DNA of 64,000 nucleotides from Peribolospora baueri (Eukaryota; Basidiomycota; Peribolosporomycetes; Peribolosporales; Peribolosporaceae): NCBI GenBank assembly GCA_029717555.1, contig JAMDHS010000039.1:1-64000 (forward strand). The letters are read 5' to 3'. A program made the translations under genes and the position numbers. Of the stretch, positions 17,101-40,111 are shown in pieces. Each line of letters starts with the position of its first letter. Position 1 is the first letter of the stretch. Under the pieces are notes generated by a model, which was given only the letters and a program-made list of their open reading frames with translations, did not search any database and was not told where the DNA came from.

Positions 17101-20100
17101 ACGGTCATCTGGCGAGCGAAGGCTTGATACATGCTGGCAATATCGCCAAAGCCGAGACGAACTGCTGTGGCGAGCAGAACGGCATGGATGTGTTCATGGT
17201 AGCGAGAATGGTGAATGGAGAGCTCAAGGAGGTGGAAGTACGGTCCACGCCTGGTGTGAGAGCTCGCGATCATGATGTTGCCCAGACACAGGATCCGCGA
17301 TATTATCGCTTCAAAATCATCGAGGTCCTCGCTTAACGCCTCGCGGACGTCCTTGTACAGCTGGAAAGGGTCCACGGCCTTCCTTGTGAGCCAGTTGAAG
17401 AGCTGCGCGGCTGACGTGGCAACTCGGAAGCGGACGCGCATGTCTTGATCCGCTGCCATCGACTGGATCAAAGCCGATGGGAGGATGCGGGTCTCCTCGG
17501 CCTCGCTCCAGACAAGTTGCCTAGGATCCAGTCGCAGATAATGGTCAAGGAAGCGCAGGAAGTACAGTCGCGTCTTCCAAGACATGACTTGTTCCTTACG
17601 AATATTGTTGCTGAAGAACTGGCACAGCTGACGGACCATTATCACAAGTTCGGAGGACTCGGTCGAGCCGTCCGTCCACAGAGGCGCAGTAGCTTGTAGC
17701 AGACGGAGAGCCAGCAGTTGGGCATGTTCGCTCCGGCCGAACTCATAGCTCGGAAGAATGTCAGAGCCGAGCTTGTCCAGAAGAGCGATCGCATCGCCAT
17801 GGTTGAGATGGAACAAATGCTGGCTGACCTTGCGCAAGAGGCAGGGGCCGACCATAAGGACGTGAGGAGCGGAGGTCTCAAGAATCATATTCAAGAGACT
17901 ATCATCCCTGACAACTTGGTTGGAGTCATAACCCAATGAAGAAAGGCATAGGATGCCGGAGATGCAGATGTCCGTGGATGCGCTTACTGCGAGAGGGGAG
18001 TCGGTCAGGATCTGGTAGGTCCGGCCCATGCGAGAAACGTCTTCGTCTGCCTCCACCTTGACCATGCCAGCAAAGTCGTCTTCCTTGCCCACAACCGGTT
18101 GTGCAGAGTCGACCTCTGTGCACAGCCCACTTTTTAGCAAGTTCCTGAAAGCCTTGGACACTGCGGTCAGAGCCGGCTGAAGCACGGAATCTTGAAGAAT
18201 AAGGACGTTGAACGGCGCTCGCTTGGTACGATGAAAGAGGGCCTGCTGTGCATCCTGCCATTTCCGTAGATCCTCCGCCCGAATGCCTGACTGCTCGCCC
18301 GGCTGCAACAGAGCGGGCCAGATGTCCTGGGGGGCATCATAAGATGCCAGAGCTTCTTCCGCAAAGAGCGGCTCGAAGCCTTGCAGCAGCAGCGCGAGTT
18401 CCACTGGCGTCCATCTCGGTTGCGTGACACATGGGGTGAGAAGGTTGAGAAGTTGACAAGCGCCGAGGAGGACTTCTCGGTCCGGACGAAAGCCATTTAG
18501 AGTGTGTGCCGCCTGGAACGCCACAGCGAGAACGACCAAATCGAGGAGACGGCGGACTTGCTCGACTGTGCAGGTCGCCACAAAGCGCTCGACGGTCGTC
18601 CCGTTGGCGGGGTACTGATGTTCACCGAAAAAAGAGGCCATGGACCGAGAAAGGAAAGCGGAGACGCGGCGGAGACTGGAAGTCGGTGCACGCGATGGAG
18701 CCGAAATTTGAGCAGCAGTCGAAGGAAGAGCACCTCCAGTCCCGACGGCGGGCTCCGCTGATGCTTTTCCCTCTGGCAGCTCGGCGTTAAGCACAAACGC
18801 CTTGATGGGTGAAACGTCGGTCTCCCTCGCTACAGCATGGACTACGGCGCAGTCGGGTAGCAAAGGCCTGGAAGCAAGTGGCGGTGGCTGAACAGGCAGA
18901 CGACAAGCCTCAGTCATAAGGTTGAGGACATGGGAGGGCTCGTGAGCTTCCATCTTCGCAGAGACGTCGAAAGCTCGTGTGGTACCGTGAAAAGGCGACC
19001 AGCTCGCAGATAGCCAGCCGATGACGTGTTCCTCCAAATGTGACCGATGAAGGCGGACGTCTTTGGCGATCATCCGCAACGCCTCGCTGAGAAAGGCACA
19101 CACAGAGTCATACGGGAACGTTGGACCTTGGACTTCGAGATTGACGAGAAAAGGCTCCAAATCTCGCAGGGCAGCCGCTCTCGCGATGAGAGAGTTTGAA
19201 AGTAGGGTGTACGCTGCGTGCGCAGCAGCCCGACAAGTCGTGGACGACGTGATGCGCCTGAGAGCGACACCCCAGAGCGACACCCAGTCCTTCACCACTT
19301 CGGTGCTCGATGAGAACGCGAAAGGCGAGTGTCGCGCACTCTCGGCCCGGGTCACCGCTTCTCCGCTGTTGTAGGAGAGGGAGAGATGCGCCAAGGAAGC
19401 CAAGGTAACAAACGCCCAAGCTTGCATCTCAAAGTCGTTATCGTTCAGCAACCCGAAGAGAGCAGTCGAAATCATGTCCCTGGCGTCCTCGGGGATAAGC
19501 CTCCGGCGCCTCTCGACGAAGAAGAGAATTGTCTGTAACTTGAACAACCTCCCTCGTCTGACGCCGTCGGATCCTCTTTCTGCCGGGGCAGCAATGGACT
19601 GCAGTAGACTAGCAAGGGGTTTGGCAAACAAGTCCAGTTCGTCATGCTCATGCTTGCGCCGTTTTGCAGGACGCGGAGAGCTGTTTTGCGTTATCGTTCG
19701 AATCTTGGACGGCGACGTCGAGAAAGGCATGCTGAGTTGACTGGTTGCGATGAGGCCATCGTTGCTGAACTCTGCCGTGCTCGCAGCAGCATCTCCAACT
19801 GGTGTCCTGCGGACGCCGCCCTCTGATAGCTCGAAAAGCCTCCACAAAACATCCGCCTCCAACTCGAGGGCTGCCCAGCTTGTGGCTCTCGCAGGCGTGA
19901 GTAGCCGACCGTGGCGAATGGTAGCGCTAGAGAAGGCTTGGGGGAGACTAGTGGCGGGACGGTACTCGAAAGCAATGTTGTCCAAGGTGAGCGGTTGAAC
20001 CGATAAAGCATCCGTGCCTCCCCGAAGACTTTCAGCTCCGGGACGAGCTTCAGCATCCTCGGCAATGAGTCGGTAGAGCTTGCCGATATCGTGAGACGAA

Positions 20101-21059
20101 ACATCCGATCTGAGCTCTGCGAGACTGGCCTCGGGCGTTGGCATGCAGACAAAAGGGGCGAGCAAGCGAAAGCCGATGAGAAGTTGCTCCTTGAGAATGG
20201 TCTTGGGTTTCCATTGCTCGAGCAAGAGAGGCCATAGATGCTTCCCGAGCGCCGCCACCGCTCCGCACGCGTTAAACTGGAGCTCTTCAAGCACTCTATT
20301 GAGGCCGTGAAGAGCATCCAAATATGCTGAAGTCTCGCTCCCGAAGGCGCGGAAGAAGCACACAAACTTGGCGAGGATCTTCCTGCCGATCTGCTTCGAC
20401 GTAACCAGCGGCGCACTCGGAGATGACATGAGTGTGCGCACGCATAGCATGGCCGCCTTGTCCTCCTGCCTCACATCGTACCGCCGCGAAGGCCGGCTTG
20501 CACTGTCAGCCGGAGCGTCGACATCCATGTCCCAGTCACCCATCGAGGGCTCAGCCGTGTTCAGGGGCTCGCGCAAAACAATGGCGAAGAAGGTAAACAT
20601 GAGAACGCTCCAAGTGTCCGGGTCGATGTGCTCCAGGTGGGGCGGGTACGAAAAAATGTGATTGAGAGCGTGAAGATAGTCGAGAGCAATGGGTTCGAGG
20701 AGGGAGCCGCGGTAATCGAGCATGTCGAGAAGGTGGCTGAGAAGGGCCTTGACGACCTTGTAGCTGAGATGCGACACAGTCTGGCCGGTTAGCCAACGAA
20801 CGGTGGCGGCGTATTCTCTTAGGCGATTCTTGGCCACCGTCTGAGCATTCTGCAGGCTGCCCCTCTTCAGACACGTCGCCTTCTCTGCCATGACGGCCGC
20901 GAAGAGGGCCTGGAATGTCTCTAGCCATCCCTTCGAATCGAGTGAGCCGACGTTGTGCGTGGACTTGAAGATGTCGCGAATGAGCCCGATACCCTCTTGG
21001 CGGTCCTTGATCTTGTCGCTCCTAAGCAGCACAGTCGCTTCCCTCAACGAAGGCGACAT
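11179..21059 (-). CDS. TEL1: Tel1/ATM checkpoint kinase (PIKK), complete
   Basis: Tel1 senses double-strand breaks with Mre11-Rad50-Xrs2/Nbs1 and supports telomere maintenance. Eight exons (21059-14287, 14220-13809, 13756-12608, 12520-12309, 12230-11912, 11832-11642, 11556-11282, 11198-11179) give 3,116 residues, close to human ATM. The start is chosen because [20 protein letters not shown] places the Tel1 TAN motif at the N-terminus. HEAT-type helices fill exon 1, with FAT before the kinase. The kinase shows [29 protein letters not shown] (about 2929) and [14 protein letters not shown]-type [14 protein letters not shown] and GVEGVFRRC follow. The FATC ends IFCGWQPWL, built only after splicing the last intron. 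The fifth intron (11911-11833) is GC-AG. The second uses GTTGGG. Two kinase introns (12607-12521, 12308-12231) are multiples of three without stops. Exon 1 is 6.8 kb without introns. Confidence 0.97.
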
Positions 21060-21656
21060 CTCGATCCTTGCAGCTGGGAAGGGATGAGGGCGGAGGCAAT
21101 ATGGTCGCGTGGTTAGGCCCATCGCTCGATTGTGAAGATCGTCGCCATTCTCGTCGCCTGAGCACTCATAAAAAAAGCTCACCGCAAGATCCCCCCAAGG
21201 CCTGCAGTCACGCAAACAGCCGAGGAATGAGGTCGCTGGCTAACAGTACGACACCCAAGCTGAGAGCTGGATGAACTACAGACAGCGACAGGGGAAAGAA
21301 GATGTTCCGTGTCTCTGACAATGTCCACACAGTCGCGCTGCCAGCAACAAAAACCCAATGAAGAAAGTTCCGCCTTCGACGGCGTCCAGGCACCAATCCG
21401 GAAGCCCCAATACTACGGGCGCAGCGATGGCTGCGAGTCACCGGGAAGAAGAAGGCAGTCGAATAGAGTCGTTAAACAACATGAATCTCGAACGGACTCG
21501 TTGCTGCCGTTGCTGCGGCACGACGATGATCGACGCACCTCCGGGCACGACTATGGCAGACGACCACCAGCTTGCATTGGCGACCATTCTGTCGGGCGCC
21601 CAGCATATTTCCCAGAGCCCCTATCTTGCTTAGGCAGTATCAGGCATACGTCTGTA
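21060..21656. promoter_or_regulatory. divergent promoter, TEL1 / HSBP1-like
   Basis: 597 bases between divergent start codons. Both strands have in-frame upstream extensions, but neither looks coding. It holds no repeat or recognised regulatory motif. Confidence 0.4.
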
Positions 21657-22448
21657 ATGTCATCGTCGTCCCCAGCACCCCTCAAGGTCAACAATGCGCC
21701 GTCGATAACGACCCCTGCAAGGAAGAAGACAGGCACCAGCGGTAGCGGCGGCGGAGGGGAGACGGGCCCGGGTTCATCCTCTTCTCCTGCAAATGGAGCG
21801 GGAGCTGGGACGAAGAAGACGATGGCGTTTGGGAAGAAGGAGAAGGAGAACAGCGGCGTGCTGGGCAACGAGATTAGTAGTCCTTTGGAGCTTACCACTT
21901 GGGTGAGTGTGTGCTTGACGGTGTTTGGCAGCACCCTGGGCATATATCAGTTTTGTTCTTTCAACTTGGCTGTTTCGAACATTCCGACTGACTCTATCGC
22001 ACCCTCGCTCGTTCAATCACACCCGGGGCTATGCTACGGGCAGGTGGAGAACGCACTTTCGGAACTAGAGTCGCGCTTCGACGACATGTCTTCCCAAATG
22101 GTGGAGCGAAGTGAGCACTTTTTTTCATCGCCCCCTTCGCCCCCTTTGACAGTATTCGATCGCCTTCGATGCTTTCACTCCATCATTGAGTCGCGCTGGA
22201 CTGGGGAGATGCAACTCACGATCTCCTCCCACTTCTCTCCTTCCACCGTCCCTCCCCACCTTTCGACGTCCGCTTTCCCATTTCTTTGACCGCTCACAGT
22301 GAACGAAATGTCATCCAGGGTAGAGACGCTGGAGCAGTCCATCTCCGACCTCATCAACGGCACAGCCGGTCTACCGAGCGCCCCCGCCTCTTCGACTGCT
22401 CGGACGGGCACGGCCAGTTCTGAAGGAGGGGCTAGCGCAGCTGGATGA
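21657..22448 (+). CDS. HSBP1: heat-shock factor binding protein 1-like coiled-coil protein
   Basis: Three exons (21657-21902, 22044-22110, 22300-22448) give 153 residues. The C-terminal half is the HSBP1 hydrophobic heptad coil: VENALSELESRFDDMSSQM, then VERMNEMSSRVETLEQSI, then SDLINGT, matching the family's DDMSSRIDDLEKxIxDL pattern. HSBP1 forms small homo-oligomeric coils that bind and dampen trimeric HSF and also act as a WASH-complex assembly chaperone in other eukaryotes. The classic protein is about 76 residues. Here about 80 residues of Ser/Gly/Thr/Lys-rich sequence precede the coil and a short Ala/Ser tail follows. ATG 21657 is the first in frame after an upstream stop-free stretch with poor composition. 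Both introns are GTGAGT/GTGAGC...CAG. Confidence 0.88.
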
Positions 22449-23106: not shown

Positions 23107-25360
23107 ATGCTCGCCTCGCTCGTCTCCTCGTGCACCATCCAGATTCATTTGCTCAACCAGCTCCTCTTCGTCTCACCTCCACCGTCCCTTCCCTCCGTTT
23201 CCGCCCCTCCCGCTGCGACCGCCAGCGATGCCGTCCTCCGCGGCATCGTCGAGCTCCGGGTGCCGTCGCCTCGTAGGATCGGAGGGGTGAAGGTGCGCCT
23301 CAAGGGCATGCTGACAATCGCCGTTCCCGCCGACCCTAACCCTTCTGGGGGAGGGGCGCTGTTCTGGGAGGAGGAGACGGTGATGGACAAGACCGTCGAG
23401 ATCGGTGTCGGCTCCGGTCGACTGGACGGTCGCGGACAGAGCCAGGGTGGTGGGAAGGAGAAGGAGAGGAGCAAGAGCAGGGATCCGGGAGGGATGGAAC
23501 TCGAAAAGGGCGTGCACGCATTCGAGTTTGCCTTCACTATCCCCTCCTGGTGTCCTCCGTACGAGCGCTCTAAGCATGGCAGGACCCGATACGTCGTCAC
23601 GGCCACCGCCCTCGCTGCTGGCCATGCTTGGACTTCCATCACCGCCTGGCGCGAAGTTTTCAGTGAGCACCAAGAAGGAGAAATGGATGGAGCTTTACCT
23701 GGAAGCCAGAGGCAGCTGAACTCCGTCTGCACCTCCCCCCCTTGCTTCACAAGTCATCGCCAACCCTTCGGCGTCAGGACCCAACGGACTTAACCCCCTC
23801 GAGATCACCCATTCGTCGTCCCACGACGGACTCGGAATAGTTTATCTGGCACTGTTGAGCCCCAGTCTGCACGTCTCCGGAAAGATCGTATTCCACGCTC
23901 GACTCGAGGCGCCTGAGCGCGGGATCAAGGTCTGGGAGGCTCGGCTGAGCATCGAGCAGATGTACGAACTCAAGAGCTCGGAGAAGGGTGAGCTCCGCAT
24001 TCTGTTCCGACAAAATGTTTGCTCCGTCGTGGAAGCGCTTCGCTCACTTGCTCCCTCCGACTATATCGTCCGTTCTTTCTGCAAACTATATGCATTTCAT
24101 TTCCACATTTAAAGGTTGGCGAACTATGCCGACGGAGAAGAAACACTTCTGGTCTATGGGCAAGATTCCAGTCCGAGATAAAGACGGCTATGTCCTCAGC
24201 GGACCAGAGCAGACCGTGACGCCGTTGTACGTTGAAGGCGAGGCGTATGAAGACTCGGAGGAGGTATGGGAGATCAGGGAGAGACCACGGTTGCCAGACG
24301 ATAAGGTAATACGGCCATCCACCGGCGAGGGCACCAGAACGTCCATCAGAGTCAAGCACGAAGTTATCATCGAGTTGTTCTACTCGACGGACAAGGAAGG
24401 CAGCTCGTCAGCCGAGAACCCAGATCCGGATCGTGGCCGTTTGAAGGTGTTCGCGTATAGGAGGAAGATCAACATTCCATCAGTCAGTCCAGTCTTCGTC
24501 TCCAGATCCTCTTTCACTTCGGACGCTGTGACTGAGGCTGATGGATCGATTTGTTTTTGCGCCGCTACGAATTCTAGTGTTGTTGCTCCATATTCGATCT
24601 CACCCTTCCGCCCTACTCTCCATCGGCGAATTCGACTCCAATAGGCACGCCTTCGCCAGACGACGCGAAAAAAAACAGCGGCTGGCCAGGCACAGCAGGC
24701 GGGACAGTGGCAGGGCAGGGGTCAGGGACGCGTTCGACGAGCGTCTCGCGCGTCGGCTCGACGTCCTCCTTGACAGCCCTAACGGCTCGCGGACGCACGT
24801 CCCTCCCAGCGACTCCTCCTGCCTCTTCGCGCTCAGGCTCCCCGATGCCTCAGCCGGTGCTCAATACCGACCTCTCCACCTCCGCCCTTGCCCCTTCTCC
24901 CTGGCTCCGCCACCTCGGCCTCTCTCTCGATCCGTTCACCCAGCCGCTCGACACGATCCGCTTCCCCAACCTGACCGCCCCAGATGTGCACCACGACTGG
25001 CAGAACGGAAGCACGACGTGCGTATGCGGTATGGAATTGAGCGCTCTGGACGAGGCAGACCGGCAGGTGCTCGCGGGTTTGGGTATGGATGAGAGCCCGC
25101 TGGGTCCGTCGATCAGTGGGCTTGGCGGGAGGGGCGCGAGCGGTAGTCGGACGAGGGGCAGGAGTACGGTGCGAGATACGGACGGGGGCGGACGGAGCCC
25201 TGCTGGGAGTCGGTCGGGGAGCGCTGCGCCGAGCAGGGAAGCGAGCGAGGAGAGGAGAGCGGACAGAGAGAGGAGGAGGGCGGAGTGGCAGGAGGTGAGG
25301 GGAAGGGCGATGCATCGGGGCAAGATTGGGGAACTCCGAGAGGACGAGCTGAATCGATGA
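23107..25360 (+). CDS. alpha-arrestin-like protein A
   Basis: Four exons (23107-23662, 23754-23987, 24115-24482, 24578-25360) give 646 residues. The start MLASLVSSCTIQIHLLNQLL aligns with both paralogues in this window. The arrestin-N half shows GIVELRVPSPRRIGGVKVRL and PPYERSKHGRTRYVV; the arrestin-C half shows SGKIVFHARLE, VWEARLSIEQ, DDKVIRPSTG, HEVIIELFYS and YRRKINIPS. After the third intron comes CCCSIFDLTLPPYSPS, containing an LPxY motif of the kind that binds WW domains of Rsp5/NEDD4 ligases. Near residue 545 is CVCGMELSALDEADRQ, shared with the paralogues; the tail is Arg/Glu-rich. Family knowledge suggests a ubiquitin-ligase adaptor for membrane-protein endocytosis; substrates are unknown. 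It is convergent with the HIT gene. Confidence 0.88.
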
Positions 25361-25965
25361 TGTCGGTGATGGAAGCGCTCTTGCTGAAGCGCGCGAGGGG
25401 AGAGCTCAACGGAGAGTCCGGGAGGCGGCGTTCCCATAGACATCTCTATTTCCTTTCCTTCTCTCTTCCTCGGGGTCTCAAATTACTTCTTGGGTTGCAG
25501 TCAAAGGTCTTCTCAATTCGGGCTTGCATAAGCCGATCTCTAGATTGGATGGGACGGGCCTCGCCGGCGGATGGGCCGCAAGGAGAAGCGGGATGGCCTA
25601 GATGTGCACGTAGACTATTATGCTCTGCAAGACGAAAGCGAGGTTAAGAAAGAGAAACTTTCAAACTTGAAGTCCCACGCCGACCGAGTCGGATCTAAAG
25701 CGTGCGATGTAGCAGAAATACCATGGCATCCCAACCATCACCGGTGCCTGCAGCCTCAGCTTCAACCCTTGGTGAACAACCACACCAAGGTTATCTAAGG
25801 GGGCGTCGCACCCAAGATAGAGGTAATCGATCCAGAAGGGTGGTGGGGGTGATGGAGAGAGGGGCAGAGGTGTTGACTAGAGCACAGCTCCTGGAGTGCT
25901 ACGACGTCGTAGCATCCTCTCGCTCTCGAGTGAATGGCAGATAGCAAGTCTGGTGGGAACTCGAC
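25361..25965. other. intergenic region between convergent arrestin A and HIT genes
   Basis: About 600 bases holding the two 3' ends. No repeat, ORF or RNA gene is supported. Confidence 0.45.
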
Positions 25966-26952
25966 TCAGAGCTTGCTCTTCCCCTTCTGACCTTCTTGGG
26001 CCGCACCTTCCCTCCCCTTCCCTCTCACTCCACTCTCTTCCTCCCCAGCCTGTGCCCAGCCCATCTCCGCAACGCATTCTCTCACCCTCTTCGCTAACGC
26101 AGTGGCATCCTCATCGTCCAGCTCCGAGCGGCCTGCCATTATCGCAGAGAGGGATGGTGGGTGCTGCTTCGTGGGTGATGATAGGGAGGATGAGGGACGA
26201 AGAGGCGGAGCAGGGACAATGTGAAAGTGAACCTGGATAGACATGTGAAGGAAATAAAAGGTCGACCGAGTGCGGATTGGTCAAGAGCATATCGATGGAG
26301 AGAGGCTGGTGCGCTTTATCCGCGACGGGAACCACCGGAGGAGCTTGACCGCCTCCATGCAGCCTGAGCGGCTTCATGCTCACATGTCCCTCCGCTTGAG
26401 CATACTCCTGGTTGCAGATCACCTGGAGGCGATTGTCTTCAAGAGCTGTTACCCCAGTGATGGTATGGAGGTCGGATAGTAGTGAAGGCGAAGTGGGGCA
26501 AAACAACACGACAAAGGGAACAAGCGTCTGCTTAGCTCGACCGTCCTCCCCAGCACCTCTTTGCACGCGTAACAGCGTTCGTGCTCAAAGGCCTTCACCG
26601 CATCGCCTATTATGGAAAAATAAAACTCACCCATCCCCAACGCCTTAACTACCCTCCTCAGGCCTTTGCCCAACCCCTCCGCCTCGGCGTCCTCCAAGTC
26701 CTCTAGCCTCCTCCGGTGTCTCACCGGAACGACGAGCGCATGTCCCCGGCGAATGGGGAGGATATCAAGAAAAGCATAGACGTGCGCACCAGCGTAGAGT
26801 GCGTGAGAGGGAAGGCTGGCGTTCGGCGGGACGAGGGCACAGAAGGTGCAGTCTGGATCGGGGCTCGGCGGGTCCCCGGCAAGAGGGGAGCGAGCGGTGG
26901 AGGCGGATGAGGCGGGCGAGGCTCTCGGCGAAGCCCTCAACCGCACACTCAT
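25966..26952 (-). CDS. HIT-family nucleotide hydrolase/transferase
   Basis: Three exons (26952-26631, 26445-26384, 26232-25966) give 216 residues. The N-terminal half has the HIT opening CTFCALV and YAFLDILPIRRGHALVVPVRH. Correct splicing of the second intron (GTGAGC...CCAG) creates the catalytic histidine triad HVHFHIVPAP, which is not contiguous in the genome. HIT proteins hydrolyse or transfer nucleoside monophosphates from substrates such as aminoacyl-AMP or dinucleoside polyphosphates; substrate specificity cannot be read here. The Lys/Gly/Glu-rich C-terminal tail looks disordered. The start is uncertain: ATG 26952 (MSVRLRASP) is preferred, but the frame is open to an ATG at 27051, adding 33 residues. 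It lies tandem and close to the 3' end of RQT4/TRIP4. Confidence 0.88.
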
Positions 26953-27164
26953 GCTCTCCCGCTCGGCCTCCGTGGCCCATGTAGAAATGGGGGGATAGGA
27001 AGAAGGCCTCCGAGCGAGCTGATCGAGCGTCCAGGACGTCATCACGAGCATGTCTGCGAAACGCCCGCGCCGTGCGGGGTGTTACTATCTGGCTGCCGAG
27101 GGCTGCTGCGGCTGCAACGCGCGCACGGACCATACAGGACAAACGTAGCTACATCGCCAGTGCG

Positions 27165-29276
27165 TTACACGGAACCCAGCGCACCCACCGTTCCTCTCCC
27201 CTCGCCCTTCCGCTTTCCCTTTCCGCCTCTCCTCTTCCCTCCTCCTCTTCTGCTTTCTCCGCCTGCTTCGTTGGGAGCATCAGAGCCAGGCGTAGAGCCT
27301 GGCGCTGAAGAAATACCGGCGGTGGTGGAACGGCCGCTCGAGTGCTGAGCTGAACCAGGGACGACCCTTCCGGACAAAGGCGTTGCCGGGATGCCTTCGT
27401 CCTCCTGCTCACCCTCCTCGCTTTCTTTCTCGTCAGGAGGAATCCATATCGGCCGCTCTTCCGTTCCCAGCTCCAGGCGGATCCAAGGTCTCGAAAGCTG
27501 GACGCGCTCGTCCTCCGCTCCAATAGAACGTTCGGGGGAGTAGGAGCCGGATGATCCACGCAAACCGTCGTCGTCCCAATCCTGGAACAGTTCCCCTTCT
27601 CGTCCGTCCACGCCGGCAAGGTCGGGCGATGCGGCGACAGGACCCTTTAAGTTCGACGATGGGGGGGCTGTCGGGCGACGCTGCGTAACGGTGACCTTGT
27701 GAGTCTTCATGTCCAAGCTCACCACTCGGGTCGGTTCGCGCTCCGCCGCGTAAGCGCCGCTCAGCCCTCCGCCCGACAACCTCTGGTAGCCTCCAGCGCC
27801 GCCGCCGACAAAAGTGGGAAAGTCACCCATGCCCATCATCTCCTTCTCCCTTCGCCACCGTTCCCTCGCCTCTTCCTCCTCCCTCCTCGCCCTCTCTGCA
27901 TCCACCGCTGCTTGGCGCTTCCGCCGTAGGTCAAGGGTGAGGTCCAGTCGGGCGTCGGTGTTCAGGAGCTGTGTCTGACATGATGGACAGAGGGGCTGTG
28001 CGAACGGAGAGTTGCGGGAACAGAGGACGAGGCCGCAAGTGGTACAGAGCGGTACGTGCACCGAGAGAGGGTGAAGACGCGCTGGGATCGGAAAGCAAAG
28101 AGAGTAGTGGCCGTTGTCCATGCGGGAGACGACGCGCGCATTTTAGTCGGTCGCAGTTCAAAATGGGACTCGTTCGGGCAATACGCACCTTGGCAGAAGC
28201 AACCCCGCGCCTTCGCCACGCTCTCCTTTCCTTTCCTCTTCGTCTCCCCCGAGTCCTGGTTGCTTAGCTCCAACTCTTGAAGGATACGATCGATCTCTGC
28301 AATCTCCGGAGTCCAGATTTTCTCTTTCGCTTTTCCACCAGCAGGCGTCCCCGTTCGAGATGTGCCGGTAGAAGAGAGAGGTGAGGCACGGCGGCTGCCG
28401 CCTCTTGAAGAGAGGAGGTCGGAAGTTAAAGCGCCTCCAGACGCTGCTGGCAGACGTTTGGCTTGCGGTTGCTGTAAAGGCGGCGACGGCTGATGTACGT
28501 CGGCGTTCGAGGAAGGGGAGGAACCCTTCTCCTTCTTCGTCTTCGCTCCGCCAAAATTCCACTCCCCGTCTTCATCCTGCCCCTTCCGGTATAAGCTCCC
28601 ACTGGCCCCGAAGGCGGCACTAAGATCCAATGGCGCCCCCGCCGCCGTTCGAGAGGACTCCGTCCCGGCTTGAGATTTGACCGCCCGTCGCCCGGTCACA
28701 ATAGAAGAACCTCGTCCGCTGCTGGCGCCCGAGCGAGAGGGATCCTTGGGCCGTTTCTCCGTCCCACCGTCGCTCGCCAACACGCTGGACGGTCGCGCCG
28801 GGGTCGAGGCGACGGAGGCTGAAGCGGATTGGGACTGAGATTGGGGGAAGCGCGAGGAAACGTAGGAGCGAATGAAGGCATCTTGCGACGGTCCCGGCCC
28901 AAGCAGTTCCTTTAAATACGAATTGGTTCCCACCAAAGGGATTGTTGAGCGATCAGAAAGACGACCGGGAGGACCCGATTAAAGAGCGCGGCTGAGCGTA
29001 CGCCCATCTCACTCACCCGAAGATGGTTGTCCAGCATGTGAGAATGACCGAACGTCTCAAGGAAGGGCACTACCTGTGTCCTTACCGTCTCCTCATCTGG
29101 ACAGGCACCGGTAAAAAAAGAAACAGGCCCGAGTTCCGCACCGCCCGTGATCAGCGCCCGAGCGCCCTGACGAAACGGGAGGGTGAACGTTGGCAAACAT
29201 GCCAGCTCGGCGCGCGAGCGGGAGACTCACCGAGACCAATGAGTTGGGCCAGCTGGGAAACGTGCTTGCTCTCCAT
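27165..29276 (-). CDS. RQT4: TRIP4/ASC-1 homologue, RQT-complex subunit Rqt4-like
   Basis: Four exons (29276-29231, 29096-29017, 28909-28189, 28081-27165) give 587 residues. Joining exons 3 and 4 rebuilds the C2HC5 zinc finger of the family: CFCQGARLHPLSVHVPLC, then TTCGLVLCSRNSPF, then CPSC. The N-terminus MESKHVSQLAQLIGLDEETV, then QVVPFLETFGHSHMLDNHLR, then ELLGPGP, matches the helical CUE-like N-terminal domain of fungal Rqt4 proteins. The centre is Ser-rich and disordered; a coiled segment (RRKRQAAVDAERARREEEE) follows the finger, and the tail is basic Gly/Lys/Arg. Rqt4/TRIP4 acts with a Slh1/ASCC3 helicase to dismantle collided ribosomes. I see no C-terminal ASCH domain, which the metazoan protein has. 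Confidence 0.9.
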
Positions 29277-29908
29277 GTACCACAAGTGACGTGGTCGTTG
29301 GGAGGAGCGTGCGACAGGCCAAGGTGGCCGAGAGAAGGTTGGGGGGTTTGAGGTGCGCGCCTGAACGATACGATCGTCCACGGATCAGAAGCGAGGTTGC
29401 ATCGCCGCAGCAGACGAACGGCTCTTCCTGCCTTGCCCACGACGACCAGAGCCAACAACCGTGATCCCTGGAGTGCATAGGTAATGCTTACGACGGAATC
29501 TCGTGGCACTGGCTTCACTGGTCGCCTGGATCGTTGTCGGCTCTCCCACCTCGCTGATCGTTCTGCATCTTCGGTCGGCCACGTCGCTGTTACCCCCGCC
29601 CCCGGTCATGCTTTGCTGTGCACCTTCCAGTCATTGCCCGGTTCGAAAAACAGGCAATGTGCGCGGGCGAGGCCAATCGAGTATTTGTCACACGTTCTGG
29701 TACAAAACTCCAAGCAAGCAAGGATCAGGCGTTCACCGTCTGAAAGTTCACGTCATGTTAGTAGAGCATCGATCCGTGACCCTTGGTAAAAGTACATGTC
29801 CAGAGAGGTATAATGCGAGCGAAGGACCAGGACCCCGTCTCTGCGGGGGACGAAAGTCGCAAAAAACCCCGATTCAAACCCGCTTGGCGGTTCGACCTTC
29901 CTCGGGCA
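29277..29908. other. intergenic region upstream of RQT4
   Basis: About 630 bases between the RQT4 start and the arrestin B stop, both genes on the minus strand. It contains no supported ORF and presumably carries the RQT4 promoter and the arrestin B 3' UTR. Confidence 0.4.
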
Positions 29909-32310
29909 TCACCCAAGTGATGCTCCACCGGCGGCGGCTCGGAACTCAAATTCGCCCACCTTCACCCTCCGCCTCCTCGCCCTCTCTCTCCGCCTCCCCC
30001 TGTCAACCTCCCGACCGTGGTCTCCTCGCAAGCCCCCGTACAGCCTCTCGCCGCTCTCCCCTTCTTCGTCCCCATCTTCTTCGCCCTCCCAATCATCCTC
30101 ACCCGCGAGTCCGCTCATCGCGTCCTCGTCCAACCCCCTCCTCTCCTCCTCGCTCAAAGCCGACATGCTCACGCCGCAATTGCAAAATTCGTGCGTTCGG
30201 CCGCCCTTATAGTCGACCGTGACCCTGTGCCAAGGCGACTCGGGAGGGAGGCTGGAGGGGGCGCGCTGGGTGGACCAGTCGACGGCGGCCATGGCGGCGG
30301 CTTGGGTCTGTGCAAAGGCGGAGGCGGAGGCTAACGCCAAGGTGGAGGAAGGATCTGCTTCTTTGACGTTCGGATCCTTCTTGAGGGGGATGGTGGTGAG
30401 GGTCTCGAAGAGAGTCGAAAGGCCTCGACTGGGAGAGGTGGAGGTGGCGCGGCGGTTGGGGGAGTGAGGCCTAGAGGACGGAGAAGGGGAGGAGGGGCGG
30501 GAGGTGGACGGCGTCCCGGTGGCGGAGGCGTTGGCCGACGAGGAGGCCAACCTGGACCATGGCGGAGGGGAGACGGAGCGAGGCGAGCTTCCGGGTATAT
30601 ACGCTGCGGGTGGGGGACTGGGAGGCATGATGGGTTGCGCGACGGCGCTGGTGGCAGTGGGAGAAGAAGATGTTGAAGAAGAGCCGGTGGCCGGGACGTT
30701 GTTCGGGGAGGTGGGCGACGATGGCTGCGACGGCCCAGCGGGTGTCTCTTGCGTCCAGATCGGGTTCGGCTTGGCAGGCATTGAAGGCCGATCAACGCTG
30801 TAGGGAGGGAGGTGGAGGATATCCGGTGTGCGGAGGCACTGTGCGGAAGAAGTGATCATTCAAACGCACGATTGAGTGAGGTACACAGGAATGCGAGCTG
30901 GAGAGAAGAGGAGGCGCTCACAGAAGGGATGACGACCGCCTTCCGAACGGTAAAGACGAGTACTCTCTCTTCCAGCGGCCTGGAATCCAGCACTTGCGCA
31001 CCGGTAAGGGACTCCTCGTAGAAAAGCTCGACGATGAGGTCGTGAGAGAAACGAAGGTCCGACTGGGCGCCGTCTGGAGTGGTCGGACGAATGACGTCGT
31101 CGTCTGCCACAAACGGGGGTTTTCTTCAGCTCACCTCAGAAGGGGAACAAAAAAAACAACGGAAGACATGTGGCCGTCGGGGAACTCACTCGGCAATCTC
31201 GCCCATTCTTTCACTCTCCACGCCCGCTTACCCTGCTCCCCCTCGCCGACGACGAGCAAAGGGTCGGTCGGCGACTCTCTTTCCTCTTCCGCCTTTTCCT
31301 GTCTCGGAATCCGCCCTGCCTTCCAAACCTGTGTCCGCTGCAAAGGCATTCGGATCGTCTTCTGTCGCTCGCGCGAATACGAGGTGGCATTTTGCTCTAG
31401 CAGGACGCGGGCATGGTGGAGAATGAAGGTAGGTCTGGAGCCGGGAGATGGTGGAGAGGAAGGGCTGGAGGAAGGAGGCGAGTTTACGACGACCACAGAC
31501 AAGTCGACAAGGAAGACACCGGCAACGGTAATGCTCCTCGCCGAGAGTCCTGCTTCCGTCCTGACAGCCCACAACTTGTGCGTGTCACCAGATCTCCTCT
31601 CGTTGAGCTTGAACAGCGGCAAGTGCTCCCTTCTGAACACCTCGAGCGGCACAGGCGAGTCTCTGTCAACGCCGGGGTTGTGGATAGGGTAGAGCTCGCG
31701 CCAGACCGAGACGTCCGTGCCCATGCGGCCTCCGCCTAGGACGACGGCGCTGAGGAGGTAGCGCGTTCGACCCCATTTGCACCGTTGGTGAGCTGGGACG
31801 GTGGCCGGGACGAGGAAAGTGAATTCAAAGCTGGAGACACAAGACGACGAAACGAGAGTAGATGCAGATGAGAAGAAACCTAGAGACGGCGAGGGAGCAG
31901 CACCGTCTGGCTAGAGTTATGCGAGGAAAGATGACTGACCCGTGCAGCCCCTTGTCCATCCATATGCCCTTTCCGCCCTCCTTCGTCTTTCCCTTGGCCT
32001 CGTCGTCCGAGCGAGCTCCACGATCCGTGCCGTCCTCACCGCCCCACTCGACGAGGCGCTCGAAAACGGTGTAATCCTCCCATCTCGCTGGACCGTGCTC
32101 CCTGCTCTCGGGGAAGAACAAGGTCTGCAGGCCCCTGAGTCGGACGCGGATACCCAAGACGCGCCGGGGCGTGGGGACAAAGACCTCGACGAGGCCACGA
32201 ACGTGCTCTAGGGAGGTGGGCTCGTCAGGCGTGGTTGGAGGGTGGAGAAAGATGACCTCGTTGAGGAGGTAGAGGGTGGGCGTGCAGGGGTGGATGAGGG
32301 CGTTGAGCAT
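29909..32310 (-). CDS. alpha-arrestin-like protein B
   Basis: Four exons (32310-31940, 31830-31190, 31103-30922, 30838-29909) give 707 residues. The start MLNALIHPCTPTLYLLNEVI aligns with arrestins A and C; an in-frame ATG at 32433 would add a basic/acidic 41-residue leader. Arrestin-N signatures are GLVEVFVPTPRRVLGIRVRL, FEFTFLVPATVPAHQRCKWG and GRTRYLLSAV. Arrestin-C signatures are NDDVIRPTTPDGAQ, FSHDLIVELFYEE and VRKAVVIPS. The last intron sits exactly after IPS, as in A and C. The next exon opens CLRTPDILHLPPYSVD with an LPxY motif. A long Ser/Pro/Ala-rich linker leads to EFCNCGVSMSALSEEERR, the conserved CxCG module, then an acidic and Arg-rich tail. This copy is the most diverged and the longest. 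Role inferred: ubiquitin-ligase trafficking adaptor. Confidence 0.87.
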
Positions 32311-32751
32311 ATTTGGGTAGCTGTCCGAGCTCCCTCTATGTCTCCTGCTCCTCAACGACGTCGTGTCGTCGTCGTCGTCGTCGTCGCTTCTTGCTCGTCG
32401 CCGCCGTCTCCTTCGACGCTCGCCCTCGTGCATTCATTTCGGACATCGTCCCACCTGACTCGGAAAAAAGTTGGCACGTGCGTGAATGTCACGTGACGCC
32501 GATCATCTGCAGGGACGGCGAGCGGGCGAGATGAAGCAGGGTGAGCGGACGACGGTAATGGGCATTACAATGCGGTCTTTGCACTTGGAATTTCATTTAT
32601 CGTAAATGGACCGTCCGCGACGATCGCTGTCTCGCGAACGGTCGTTGGCCGCATCACCGCCGCCTCCTCGGCCTCCTCCCACCATCGCATCTCTCATCCT
32701 TTCCTCCCTCCACTGCTCCATCTCTCCCCCCCAACCGAGATCTGGAAAGAC
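32311..32751. promoter_or_regulatory. divergent promoter, arrestin B / DnaJ
   Basis: 441 bases between divergent starts. A (GTC) run lies near 32365-32386. ACGTGACG-like sequence (cacgtgacgccg) occurs near 32490 and could bind bZIP or bHLH factors; this is inference. Confidence 0.4.
32365..32386 (+). repeat. (GTC)7 microsatellite
   Basis: Short perfect trinucleotide run immediately upstream of the preferred arrestin B start. It encodes the Asp run in the optional N-terminal extension of that gene. Confidence 0.9.
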
Positions 32752-34149
32752 ATGTCCGCAGACTATTACGACATCCTTAACCTACCGCAGGGCGCGACCG
32801 ACGCTGAGATCAGGAGGGCCTATCGGAGGGAGGTGAGCATACGGCGCGTTATGCACCGAGAAGGTCCTGCCAGCGGCAGCTCCTTCCCTGCTCGGGTCGC
32901 CCCCGTGACTGAGTCCTAGTTACTTCTTGCCCGTCCTTCGTCTCCAGGCCCTCAAGACGCACCCAGACCGAGCCTTGCCGGAGCGCAAGGAAGAAAGCAC
33001 ACACAGGTTCAGGCTGGTGGCCGAGTGAGTTCGTGAGCCCGTTCGCCCCTGATTTGTCACGCCGGCCCGCATCAACCGACCTCTTTCTGTCCGTGCTGCC
33101 CCTCCTCTCCGCCCAACAGAGCCTACGAGACCCTGTCCGACCCCGTATCGCGCGCAGCGTACGATCGCTCCCGCACCGCTGCCCACGCCCGCCCAGCTCC
33201 CAGCGCCGGCGCCACTCGCCCCGCCACCGCGGGAAGAGGAGCGGGGCTGGACGACCTATTCGAGGGCGTGTTTGGAGACGACCCGTTCTTTGACCGCTCT
33301 CGCGCCAGGCCTTTCGGTGGCGGAGGTCTGTTCGGCGTCTTCGGGCCGGGTGGCGGCCTCTTCAGCTCTCCTTGGTCGATGGGCCGAGATGGCGGCATGG
33401 GCGGGATGCCGTTGGGCGACGAAGAGCGAGCGTCGCGGAGAAGCGCCTCGCACCTGCCTCCACACCGTCACCCGGATCCCTTCGAGCTGTTCGACGAGAT
33501 GTTCCGCCCGTTTTTCCCCTACCACCGGTTCCGGCACGGCGACCCGGACTCTCCCTTCGATACTTTCGGAGGCTTCGGCTTTGGAAGTGGAAGGGGTGGC
33601 AGACGGTCGCTGTTTAACTTTGAAGACTACCCTCCCTTCTCCAGCGCACAGAACGTCACCCCTCCCCCTCCTTATTCTCTGCCACAATTTGTGCACGGCT
33701 CCTCGCACGACTATCGAACCTACCCGACAGCCGCCGCTGGGACGACGACCGTCCAGCCAGCGACCGCAGAGGCCCCCGGCCAGGCATCGACGTCGCCTCG
33801 CACTCACTCGCGCGCCTTCCAGTGGAGCTTCGGCAGCTCGTTCGGACCCGAGGGGAGCGAGATGAGGCATTCGACTAGGGCGAACATCAATGGCAGGTGG
33901 TCCGGGGAGGCAGTGTATAGAAGCACGGACGCAGAGGTGAGTTAAATCGGTTTGATTTGAATCGATTGGGCGGCGGCGATCAATCGTGGTCATCCTCGCA
34001 TCCCATTCCATGGGCGAGATGTGGGTCCTGACGGCTGTTCGCTCGTTCCACAGGGGAACGAAACCGTCGTTCGCCTGACGCCAGAGGGAAAGACTGTGAC
34101 CGTCAACGGCGTGCCCCAGCCCAATCACCCTCTGCTTCAACGCGGTTGA
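32752..34149 (+). CDS. DnaJ (Hsp40) co-chaperone, class B-like
   Basis: Four exons (32752-32832, 32948-33024, 33120-33936, 34054-34149) give 356 residues. The first three exons encode a J domain: MSADYYDILNLPQGATDAEI, then RRAYRREALKTHPDRALPER, with the catalytic HPD at residues 32-34, then FRLVAEAYETLSDPVSRAAY. The middle is Gly/Phe/Pro-rich (LFEGVFGDDPFF, HPDPFELFDEMFRPFF), typical of a G/F linker. The C-terminus WSFGSSFG...NGRWSGEAVYRST, then GNETVVRLTPEGKTVTVNG, has short beta strands. There is no Cys-rich zinc finger, so it is not a type I DnaJ. J proteins stimulate Hsp70 ATPase; compartment is not evident because I see no signal peptide or membrane segment. Confidence 0.93.
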
Positions 34150-34844
34150 AGCAAAATGTGCGGTCGTCGGCCGTAGGGTGGTGACGTGAGGGCGGCGCGA
34201 CCCCTCTCAAGTGGGAGCTCTTACTCGGGAGCGTTTTGTTCTCCTTCGTGTGCGCCACGACATCCTCTCTTCATCCGGCCTTGCCGAAGTTTCTTCCCAG
34301 TCACCGATACTTGAATCGCCTAGCCTCTTCTTCGTCTTTTCCATTCGCCCGCACCCATGTATTCAATCGCCGGCATTTCAGCCTGTCTCGCGCTTTCTTT
34401 GCGAACTTGTAACCCCTCCGCCGTCTCTTGCCATCCCTCCTGTAACCCCTTCCGTCGTACCATTCCTTCTGCCTATCCTCTCGCTCCGTTCGCAAATCCA
34501 TCATGATCTGAAGATGATTTACACGAAGCGGTGTTTTTCGTCTTTTCCCCCTGTTACGCTCGCCCACCCGCACCGGTGAGCGTCGCGTTCTCTGTGGGGC
34601 CGCGGGGATGTGGCCCGTGCGCGGTTGCGTCAGCGAGTCACATGGCGTATGGTTCGAGTCAGGAACGAGGAGCAACGGCTAAAAGGACGGACAAACGACA
34701 GACAGACGAGAGGAAGACCACCACAACTCACCTCCGCTCGTCTCGGAGCTGATCTGAGCTGGGCTCGCCTTGAACCGGGTTGAATGAACGGTCGTCTGCA
34801 AACCGAGCGCCGAGGTCGCCTCGACAACACCCCCGCCTTGCACC
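34150..34844. other. intergenic region between DnaJ and arrestin C
   Basis: About 700 bases with the DnaJ 3' UTR and the arrestin C promoter. A B-box-like string (ggttcgagtca) occurs near 34650, but no cloverleaf can be built around it. No ORF is supported. Confidence 0.4.
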
Positions 34845-36740
34845 ATGCTCGACAACCTTCTCTCCAGCTGTTCCATCTCCCTCCACCTTCTCAACCAGGT
34901 CGTCTTCCTCCGCCCCTCTAGTTTGCCGCTCCCCTCTCGGCCCGACGACCCCAGTCTGCTCTCGGCCCCGTGCGAGAACGTCTCCGGAAGCCTGCTCCGC
35001 GGCTTCGTCGAGGTGCGCGTACCTTCGGCGCGCAAGCTCGGCGGGGTGCGCGTCCGCATCAGAGGTGTCTCCAGCGTCGCCTTGCCCGCCCTCGTCTCCG
35101 TCGCCGACCCGTCATCGCGGGGCGAGGCGAGGCTGCAGGTGGGCGACATTTCGCGGTACGAGGAAAGGGTCGTTCTCGACGAGTCTGTCGAGACGGCCGA
35201 CAACGGCGTCAGCTTGGACGCCGGCACCCACGTCTTTGCCTTTTCCTTTCCCCTCGCCGCCCATATGCCCCCGTACGAGCGGAGCCGGTTCGGGAGGGTG
35301 AGGTACGTCTGCTCGGCCGTTGCCCGCGGTGCCGGGTACGCCAAGACGGACGTGTCGGCTTGGAAGGAGGTGTTTGTGACCTGCAACCCCAGTCCGGCGG
35401 GCGTCAACGGCCTCAACGCCCTCGAGGTCCTCCACACCGAGTCCTACCACGGCCTCGGCGTCCTGAGGCTTGCCATGCTCAGTCCGAGCCTGAGCGTCAG
35501 CGGCAGCCTGTTGCTTCACATACGATTGGAGGTGCGTCGCTGGCTTTGCGGCTTCGTATCCGATCGTCGTCTCTGTCCCTCCCCGATGTCGCTCACACAA
35601 ATATATACATACATACAGTGCCCGCACCCTCGTGTGCAAATTTGGCAGGCTCGCCTGGTCGTCGAGCAGACCTTTGAACTGCGCTCCAGGAATTCCAAGG
35701 AGACCATGAAGCTCCCCGCGGAGAGGAGGGTGGTGTGGAGCGCGGGCGCGAGGCCGCCGCTGTCGCGGGACTCGCGCGTGCTGCCGTGGGCCGAGGAGAA
35801 GGAGAGCGCGGTGCAGCCGATCTGGAGGCACGACGAGGAGGGCGACACGGGCGACGGGTCGGTCGCTGCGTCCGCGTGGGAGACCAAGGCGATGGTCCGA
35901 CTGCCGAGCGACGACAAGATCCGGCCGAGCACTTCTCCGGGCACGATGACCGACATCCGCGTCGGACACGAGCTGGTCTGCGAGATTTTCTACAGCGTCG
36001 GCGGCGGCGGCGAGTCGAGGGAGAGAGGCGAGAAGCTGAACGTGTTCACGTTGAGGAAGAAGGTGGTCATACCCAGTGTGAGTGGTCAGAGGTCGCTGAT
36101 CTCTTTCGCTTTCGCTCATCCTCACATGACGTCTCCCCGTGTCTTTTCTCGCTCGCTCGACATGGCCGGACGGCAGTGCTGCGTGTCCTTGTTCGATCTC
36201 GAATTGCCGTCGTACGAAGCGGCGACGTCGGCTACGAAAGCGAGACCGCCGTCGCTGTCGTCGTACAGGGCACGGGACGGCACGCCGATCGGGTCCTCTT
36301 CAGCGAGCGCGCAACCGACAGTTTGCACCATGTCGGTGCTCCACGGCATCCTCCACCCCGTCGGCGGCTCGAACCGGTCGTCGTTGTCGTTGTCGTCGTC
36401 CGTCGACCTTCCCCGACTGCCTCACCTGGGCCCATGCCTGCGCGCGCCCGAGACATGTGGCACGGCCGACGAGCCTTGGCCGTGCTACTCGGTGGTGCCG
36501 GTAGCAGACCCGACGGGCCTGCTGTCGCTCGGGGCGGGCGGAAAGGACGAGTGGCCGACGCCGCGGTGCGTGTGTGGGATGAGGCTGAGCACGCTGAGCG
36601 CGCGCGAGGCGGCCGTGTTGGACGGTCTGGGGATCGATTTCGACGGGCCTGGCGGGCTCGGGCGGCCGAGGGGCGATGGAGGTAGGGGTGGGGGTGCGGT
36701 CGAGTCGGGTGGGCCGGAGTGCGGGAAAGGGCAAGGGTAA
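34845..36740 (+). CDS. alpha-arrestin-like protein C
   Basis: Three exons (34845-35531, 35619-36077, 36177-36740) give 569 residues. It opens MLDNLLSSCSISLHLLNQVV. Arrestin-N: GFVEVRVPSARKLGGVRVRI, PPYERSRFGRVRYVC, AWKEVFVTCNPSP. Arrestin-C: SGSLLLHIRLE, VQIWQARLVVEQTFELRS, DDKIRPSTSPGTMTDI, GHELVCEIFYS, LRKKVVIPS. The last intron follows IPS as in the paralogues; the next exon begins CCVSLFDLELPSYEAAT with an LPxY motif. The module CVCGMRLSTLSAREAAVLDG lies near residue 525. The first intron (35532-35618) is 87 nt with no stop codon, so retention would insert 29 residues in frame. Arrestin A is its closer relative in this window, sharing CC..FDL and the EVF...NP(L/A)LE blocks. Likely a Rsp5-type ligase adaptor. 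Confidence 0.88.
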   Translation: MLDNLLSSCSISLHLLNQVVFLRPSSLPLPSRPDDPSLLSAPCENVSGSLLRGFVEVRVPSARKLGGVRVRIRGVSSVALPALVSVADPSSRGEARLQVGDISRYEERVVLDESVETADNGVSLDAGTHVFAFSFPLAAHMPPYERSRFGRVRYVCSAVARGAGYAKTDVSAWKEVFVTCNPSPAGVNGLNALEVLHTESYHGLGVLRLAMLSPSLSVSGSLLLHIRLEVRRWLCGFVSDRRLCPSPMSLTQIYTYIQCPHPRVQIWQARLVVEQTFELRSRNSKETMKLPAERRVVWSAGARPPLSRDSRVLPWAEEKESAVQPIWRHDEEGDTGDGSVAASAWETKAMVRLPSDDKIRPSTSPGTMTDIRVGHELVCEIFYSVGGGGESRERGEKLNVFTLRKKVVIPSVSGQRSLISFAFAHPHMTSPRVFSRSLDMAGRQCCVSLFDLELPSYEAATSATKARPPSLSSYRARDGTPIGSSSASAQPTVCTMSVLHGILHPVGGSNRSSLSLSSSVDLPRLPHLGPCLRAPETCGTADEPWPCYSVVPVADPTGLLSLGAGGKDEWPTPRCVCGMRLSTLSAREAAVLDGLGIDFDGPGGLGRPRGDGGRGGGAVESGGPECGKGQG

Positions 36741-38042: not shown

Positions 38043-38390
38043 CGGATAAAGCAGCAAGAAGAAACGGGCCTTCAACGGAGAGGGAACAGAAAGCGGCGGG
38101 AAGAAACGGGTTTTCAACCGGCGAGAAGAAACGGTTGTCAACAATATCGTGCCACGTGGCAAAATGGAAAAGCGTGGACGGAGAATAAGTGGAGGAGATT
38201 AGCGAGGTGAAAAACAAGGACGTTAATTAAAGCAGTAAGAAGAAACGAGTCTTCAACTGGGAGGGAAGATAAAGCGGCGAGAAGAAATGGGTCTTCAACA
38301 AGAAAGAAACGGGTCTTCAACCGGCGAGAAAAAACGGTTTTCGACAAAGTCGTGCCACGTGGCAAAATAACCAGCGTAGACTGCGGAGTA
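38043..38390 (+). repeat. imperfect direct duplication with short internal repeats
   Basis: Two diverged copies (about 38043-38175 and 38226-38390) align with small indels. Each contains several short units of the form agaaacgggtcttcaaccgg and ends in cgtgccacgtggcaaaat. The 12-base palindrome tgccacgtggca (38150-38161 and 38353-38364) is identical in both. On the minus strand the units make Leu/Phe-rich nonsense ORFs. No terminal inverted repeats or coding capacity identify a transposon family. Confidence 0.75.
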
Positions 38391-40111
38391 AAAGGTATAA
38401 TGAAGCGTACATTCCAGCATCTAGTCACATATTATTAGTCTCGCCGTCTTATTAGTTTCGACGATCGAAGGATTGCCTCGCTGAAGCAGGCGTGGACCGC
38501 TGCCAAATACGTAACTAGGTCACTTACGGTCCTGTGCTGACAGTAGGCAAGGAGGACTCCGTGTGTGGTTCGACCGAGGGTTTGGTCAACATCGTGTGCA
38601 CCGGGGTGGAAGTGGAGTGAGTCGGCCGCCATGGAGCTGGACGCCGGCGCGGGCTGTGCGACGTCCAGCCCGTTGCTCAGGCAACCGACGCGGAGTCGTC
38701 GGCGCACTTGCACATCTCCCAAGTCACGACCACCACCCATTTCAACCTCCACCATCCTCCCTCCTCTCTTCCTCTTCTCTTCTCCCTCTCGCCCATCCTG
38801 GCTGACGACCACCTGCGCCTCCGTTGCACTAGACGATCGGTGCCCTCCATCAATCTAATCTAGGCATGCAATCTCATCGATCCGGCGCTGCACGCCGTCG
38901 TCTCCTCGCCCCGCCAGGTGCCCGATTGCTCCCAGCTCTCCGTCGCAACGAGTCCGGTTCGCCGGTCGGCCGTCTGGCGTCGTCGCGGGTGCATGGTCTG
39001 GCTGAAACAGCACATCTGTCTTGCCGTTCGGACCGCCAGCTCACGAGTGGCCACAGTCATGGGCGAAGCGTCGTAAAGGTCTGACACGTTCGTCATCGTA
39101 ATTGTCGGGCAGCGCACACACCTTTAGACTCGAAATGGAGGCTGAGAATAGCCATCGTCGACCGCGAGGAAGGAGGTGGCTACCACGACGAAGCGCAGTG
39201 AGGTACGGTAGCGGTCCTACTTGCAGACGAGTGTGGGCTGCAGGAGGGAGCGTGTGCGATAGCCGTCCTCGCTCGTTGCGACTGTGCATGCTTCCTCATT
39301 CCCCTTGGCCGCCCTGGCATATCCTTCTTCCGCTCGCAAGTCCGCCCACGCTGCTCACAGGCCTCCAGCCCTCCCCGTCGTCGCCATCCGCCCGTAGTGG
39401 TCGCCGTCGTCATCCGTTCCAAGGCAGGCGGTGGGTGGGTGAATTGAAGCACATGTACTCGACCTTAACGCGGCGCCCCGAACAACTTTTCCCTCTCCCT
39501 TCCTTCTTCCCAGTGTCCCTCCCCAGCGCTCTCGTCCCCTCTTCTTTACCCGGCTCGGTCCGTCGTTCTCCCACCCCTCTCACTTCGTCTTCACCTTCGT
39601 TTGCACCGCGAGCACGTAACGCCCCAGCGGCCTCTGCCTGCTCGTTCACTCGCCTTTGAGAGGCCTTCCCCCCTCATTTCCTTCAGTTTCCCCGGTAGCT
39701 CACTTCGCCTCGTCTCGCCGGCCTGTTGGCAGGAACGGTCCCGCTCGATAATCGTCGACCTCCAGCACCTTCCGTCCTTGTTAAGACGATTACGACCACA
39801 TCGACTGCCGCGAATTCACAACGTACACTCCCAGGACGTTATCCCTTCCATTTGGACATTTACTTCCCTAGCTGTCGCTGGACGATCTCTACGCCCCTCG
39901 CTGGTCGATTCGTTCTTTTCACACCCTCTCGCCCCTCGGATCGATTCCGGTCTTGACCACGGCTGGACAACCTGACAAGAAAGCCTCCATTCCACAGTCG
40001 CAGTGAGCCTTTCACAGATCGGCCTTGTCTGTTCGTGATCCCCTCGCATGCGAACATCCTGACCTCTTCGCTCTTTGCTTGTCCTCACTATGTGCCTGCC
40101 CAGCTTTGACC
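38391..40111. other. gene-poor region upstream of the Ser/Thr-rich secreted protein
   Basis: About 1.7 kb with short overlapping ORFs on both strands, none with a family match or consistent splice pattern. The last 500 bases are CT-rich and probably form the promoter and 5' leader of the gene starting at 40112. Confidence 0.35.

Follow-up and report, generated by a model that had tools for sequence, protein, structure and literature searches.

Three clustered alpha-arrestin genes and a dispersed fourth in Peribolospora baueri: probable members of an old subfamily of putative Rsp5 adaptors

Three intact, spliced alpha-arrestin genes, here designated A (forward strand), B (reverse strand) and C (forward strand), are found within 13.6 kb (23107-36740) of a 64,000-nucleotide stretch of Peribolospora baueri DNA, that is, of contig JAMDHS010000039.1 from its position 1 (the ‘window’). 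Together with a fourth gene, D, which is located on another contig, they would seem to represent an old alpha-arrestin subfamily, one that arose by duplication at this locus or close to it, with D dispersed, and whose products are predicted Rsp5 adaptors. As a whole, this account is considered to be reasonably probable. It starts from the gene structures, the common descent of the four genes, an unrooted split of A and C from B and D, a set of motifs, and a WW-HECT ligase gene elsewhere in the genome, all of which are established.

Gene A occupies 23107-25360 (+) and encodes 646 amino acids over four exons (23107-23662, 23754-23987, 24115-24482, 24578-25360). Gene B, at 29909-32310 (-), consists of four exons as well (32310-31940, 31830-31190, 31103-30922, 30838-29909), encoding 707 amino acids as counted from a start codon that was picked by homology, with a further in-frame ATG upstream at 32433. 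Gene C, at 34845-36740 (+), encodes 569 amino acids over three exons (34845-35531, 35619-36077, 36177-36740). The spliced frames are full-length in all three genes, and GT-AG borders are seen at eight of eight introns. A cluster of just these genes, employing both strands, had been predicted from inspection of the window, and its ends agree, A beginning with its ATG at 23107 and C finishing with its stop codon at 36740. Also as predicted, unrelated genes interrupt the cluster, each of them matched by Pfam. Between A and B there is a HIT-domain frame (26452-27081, -, PF01230) and then a zf-C2HC5 gene (27168-28978, approximate extent, -), presumably RQT4/TRIP4-like, for which the PF06221 match lies in frame 27168-28142, and frame 27965-28978 of the same stretch is without a Pfam match. 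Between B and C there is a DnaJ-domain gene (32753-34149, extent by eye, +, PF00226). The start context that had been claimed for A, B and C, ML...C....LLN, is loosely borne out, with C9 and LLN15-17 unvarying among these three and D having the LLN without the Cys.

D, which had no place in the original prediction, was found when the organism's genome assembly (22.14 Mb in 178 contigs) was queried with the proteins one by one. It lies on contig C94 (exons 88066-88751, 88838-89891 and 90001-90972; 903 amino acids) and belongs to the same subfamily as A-C, possessing their phase-0 intron (‘IPS|C’), an LPxY motif in the equivalent position, and their tail box, all as described below. Near D, seven frames of at least 200 amino acids were scanned, out of 14 listed, and four of these have Pfam matches, counted as three genes: GPHR_N, elongation factor domains (two frames), and a steroid dehydrogenase. 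As the scanned frames are unlike HIT, zf-C2HC5 and DnaJ, none of which is present among the seven, nothing points to a duplicated block around D. A segmental duplication that carried along neighbours was rejected on that same basis, i.e., no neighbour type of the A-C cluster is seen in the seven frames.

The genome's other arrestin loci are designated here as E, F and G, plus three loci with a match to one domain, H and I, which exceed a Pfam cut-off, and J, which falls below it. At least ten arrestin loci thus are present, with only the best candidates having been scored by the search. Further weak matches to B, on C159 (E 0.0058) and C156 (E 0.95), stand outside of this count. Trees took in E, F and G and left out H (C25), I (C112) and J (C145) as weak or fragmentary. 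F and G are themselves a second sister pair of arrestin genes (L048 and L049, on C155, at approximately 33.7-34.2 kb, -, and 61.5-64.9 kb, +, and about 30 kb apart). Their Arrestin_N is interrupted by a long insert, and P|(V/I)H(L/I)LSC marks a phase-0 intron that they have in common.

A single phase-0 intron placed exactly after IPS had been described for A, B and C, and such an intron is indeed present in each (24483-24577, +, in A; 30839-30921, -, in B; 36078-36176, +, in C). With D included, this IPS|C intron is found in four of four genes. Additional introns number two in A, two in B and one in C, none of them common among A-C. One of those in B, a phase-2 intron (31831-31939, -) within the Gly codon of LHG, nevertheless has the same place and phase in D, and this HG|FEF intron is found, among A-D, in B and D only. 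As judged by eye, a phase-0 intron in F and G precedes the IPS|C place by five codons, and E is without an intron there. Given that five-codon displacement, the intron at IPS|C cannot simply be equated with the general arrestin-family intron, although it may be a version of the latter that has shifted by sliding. Similarly, the outgroup F has an intron approximately 10 bases upstream of that of B and D, in a different phase (also by eye), so that a new gain of the B/D intron is less than certain.

Directly following the arrestin core, each of A-D has one LPxY motif (0.1-0.9 percent in shuffled tails). Per protein, (P/L)PxY is single, with the looser PxY counting three in A, one in B, three in C and two in D. 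Beyond that motif, following a spacing of 117-212 residues, all four proteins have in their C-terminal tails a CxCG[MV] box (no more than 0.42 percent per shuffled tail), after which 53-109 residues lead to the C-terminus. The box reads CVCGM in A (25019-25033, +), CNCGV in B (30170-30184, -) and CVCGM in C (36567-36581, +). It sits in the last exon (24578-25360, 29909-30838 and 36177-36740, respectively), where a short similar stretch then follows, with the tail otherwise poorly conserved. CxCG[MV] was not seen in E-J, for which stretches measuring 5 to 7.7 kb were searched over three frames of the gene strand, with H and I extended. A looser CxCG occurs four times in those stretches (in G, twice in H, and in I), in no case followed by M or V and in no case within the arrestin long open frame. 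A fourth TGYNNNTGYGGNRTG match, at 39988-40002, was rejected as chance, there being no credible frame.

Judged from sequence, the box might bind metal, carry a lipid anchor or dock a partner, and control the adaptor in this way independently of the PY motif, and it represents a concrete candidate element in that regard. That A-D might form a distinct fungal alpha-arrestin class, in which a fast-changing and probably disordered tail keeps one conserved CxCG[MV] island, is put forward tentatively and with considerable doubt.

Common arrestin-N and arrestin-C blocks had been claimed for the three clustered genes. Arrestin_N (PF00339, with a cut-off of 24.9 bits) is exceeded in three of the four proteins, i.e., in A (34.8 bits), C (30.2) and D (26.1), but B falls below it (13.8), and Arrestin_C (PF02752), searched up to an E of 1, has no Pfam match in any of A-D. 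In F and G, Arrestin_C is strong (74.4 and 59 bits). B is counted as an arrestin, its own Pfam score being sub-cut-off, because it is homologous by blastp to A (E 1e-54) and to C (E 6e-53). As A-D can be aligned to one another over the second half, and as a predicted model of C matches two-lobe arrestins, the Arrestin_C domain of A-D looks diverged rather than absent. That model, which is of the core, with the first intron read through and the alignment consisting of window exons only, is of low confidence (mean pLDDT 59.1, pTM 0.45). Its matches are to the arrestin clan, and the top solved one, given this low-confidence model, is C. elegans ARRD-6 (Foldseek E 2.0e-12), below which come VPS26, TXNIP, visual arrestins and ARRDC3. 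TM-scores from the same low-confidence model are only 0.18-0.35 for the two-lobe entries listed, with a TMt of 0.65 for the ARRDC3 N-lobe. Animal ARRDC3, TXNIP and ARRD-6, although among the best fold matches of this uncertain model, have an identity of 12-22% over the portions that align. Solved arrestins are matched only weakly by sequence profile, the best match having an E of 0.014, with ARRDC3 and ARRD-6 being the best of these too (E 0.014 to 0.33). The excerpted text of PMC2699828 gives a (P/L)PxY WW-binding motif as an alpha-arrestin criterion and helix I, missing from the N domain, as separating alpha- from beta-arrestins, the criteria themselves being called not robust.

Identity over 341 gap-free columns of the core is 49.0 percent for A-C, 44.3 for B-D, 42.5 for A-D, 41.1 for C-D, 39.0 for B-C and 38.1 for A-B. 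The unrooted quartet AC|BD was obtained in 100 percent of 500 standard bootstraps, and the 2-2 site patterns number 15 for AC|BD versus 7 and 6. Similarity in DNA is kept by B-D alone (three pieces of 51-172 bases, 70-78 percent). None is seen at E 1e-3 for the other five of six pairs, every pair among A, B and C included, and recent gene conversion within that trio accordingly was rejected. B has the longest branch among A-D, in agreement with its having been named as the most diverged. Versus E, F and G, A-D form a 100/100 clade. The best root lies between AC and BD in four of four outgroup analyses (with E+F+G, or with F+G alone), and one further tree agrees. With outgroups, ultrafast bootstrap for the inner branches is weak (62-75 for AC, 71-86 for BD), and none of the alternative roots, i.e., ABC, ACD, BCD or ABD, is rejected (p-AU 0.116-0.326). 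The AC|BD split, that is, is firm, but the root is not.

The original prediction was of a pure local expansion, to be checked by whether A, B and C group together apart from other arrestins, in which case D would be an outgroup to one local clade. The best trees do not return that grouping, since D, which is on another contig and yet of the same subfamily, pairs in them with B. Neither do they set it aside outright, since an ABC clade is unrejected by the AU test, with forcing A, B and C together costing 1.6 to 3.3 log units (p-AU 0.152, 0.133, 0.226 and 0.159). An expansion exclusive to the locus thus is not shown. The presence of three of four copies within 13.6 kb would fit well with a single local clade, and the HG|FEF intron would then be ancestral and have been lost before the A/C split. 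Such a history nonetheless appears unlikely, given the placement of the root between AC and BD in the best trees, the need of the B-D intron for a gain and a loss instead of one gain, and the keeping of DNA similarity by B and D only.

What can be said in favor of the locus itself comes from the clustering. Given random placement in 22.14 Mb, as estimated post hoc, three of the four genes would be found inside a 13.6-kb span with a chance of 3.8e-6, and three of ten arrestin loci with a chance, likewise post hoc, of 1.4e-4. Non-random clustering combined with paralogy makes duplication at or near the locus likely, and clustering through descent is a sensible reading. Duplication at or near the locus with one copy now elsewhere is likely the best account, then, so that of local duplication as first claimed it is the exclusivity to A-C which the dispersed D puts in doubt. 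The copies are old, not recent, going by their core identity of 38-49%, and because they are old and a fourth relative exists elsewhere, the cluster looks like an ordinary gene-family expansion rather than a recent local burst. An ancestral gene, in which the IPS|C intron, an LPxY and a CxCG box in the tail were already present, would have been duplicated at or near the locus, with one line leading to A and C and the other, carrying the HG|FEF intron, leading to B and D. D, or its copy, would then have relocated elsewhere in the genome; it is from the above trees, introns and positions that we infer this order of duplications and the move of D. The orientation of B may equally be due to inversion, inverted duplication or gene movement.

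That A-D instead are separate ancient orthologue groups, with the cluster a relic from a distant ancestor or a later gathering, is rather improbable. Low identity (38-49% over the 341 core columns) and the lack of DNA similarity at E 1e-3 in five of six pairs are in keeping with such antiquity, but A-D have in common an exact intron place, versus five codons upstream in F and G and none in E, as well as a tail box that was not found in the stretches of E-J searched, and they form a 100/100 clade relative to E, F and G. The assembly is a draft, in 178 contigs, yet assembly artefact, pseudogenes or chance frames can hardly be credited as lying behind A-C, with frames intact, introns GT-AG, motifs conserved, and a divergence far exceeding that of alleles.

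Returning to duplication of an old subfamily, A-D are likely, as read from their sequences, to be putative Rsp5 adaptors for membrane cargo, and this is so because the LPxY follows the core, because the fold matches are of an arrestin type, and because a WW-HECT gene is present in the genome. The latter is a HECT ligase frame that is preceded by three WW domains (C165:6170-8102), a layout like that of Rsp5, which has three WW domains according to the excerpt of PMC2810449; that excerpt also has yeast arrestins recruiting Rsp5 via PPXY/LPXY motifs. The arrestin core thus would bind membrane cargo, the LPxY right behind that core would recruit the WW domains of an Rsp5-type HECT ligase, and cargo and/or adaptor would be ubiquitinated, giving rise to endocytosis. 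We infer ligase binding and cargo here, as well as any division of labour among A-D. The suggestion that local expansion may reflect new transporter control would be a further step, and by way of a recent local expansion it is a claim not to be repeated without sister genomes. A small old subfamily with most genes still clustered supplies a well-delimited group of genes with which to study the division of cargo among Rsp5 adaptors in fungi of this kind.

The nearest described kinds, going by excerpts of the sources cited, are the yeast ARTs and Cryptococcus Ali1-4. Yeast ART alpha-arrestins (Art1-Art10), as portrayed in the excerpt of PMC2810449, are like A-D in arrestin homology and in having a PPXY/LPXY-type motif, but A-D differ from them, so far as that excerpt goes, in matching Pfam weakly (no Arrestin_C), in having one (P/L)PxY each, and in the CxCG tail box. 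Cryptococcus Ali1-Ali4 (PMC6867901, PMC12345238), compared by description only and from partial texts, are fungal arrestin-domain proteins with PxY sites, as are A-D. The same partial texts have four arrestins in Cryptococcus, versus A-D, E, F and G plus the three one-domain-match loci H, I and J in the present genome, and multiple PxY (PMC6867901, in excerpt) versus the single (P/L)PxY of each of A-D. Literature on basidiomycete or Pucciniomycotina arrestins gave no result among the matches listed, and a four-protein alignment found no relative in genome-contig and viral-contig collections, neither of them a fungal one.

The window has additional features on either side of the cluster. At 14286-21239 (-) there is a frame of 2318 amino acids with a TAN domain close to its N-terminus (PF11640, 138 bits), which we take to be of the Tel1/ATM type, and upstream of A, at 21264-22286 (+), there is a weak HSBP1 match (19.7 bits versus a cut-off of 28.6). 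Downstream of C, at 38047-38368, two adjoining stretches of approximately 120-140 bases are 74 percent alike.
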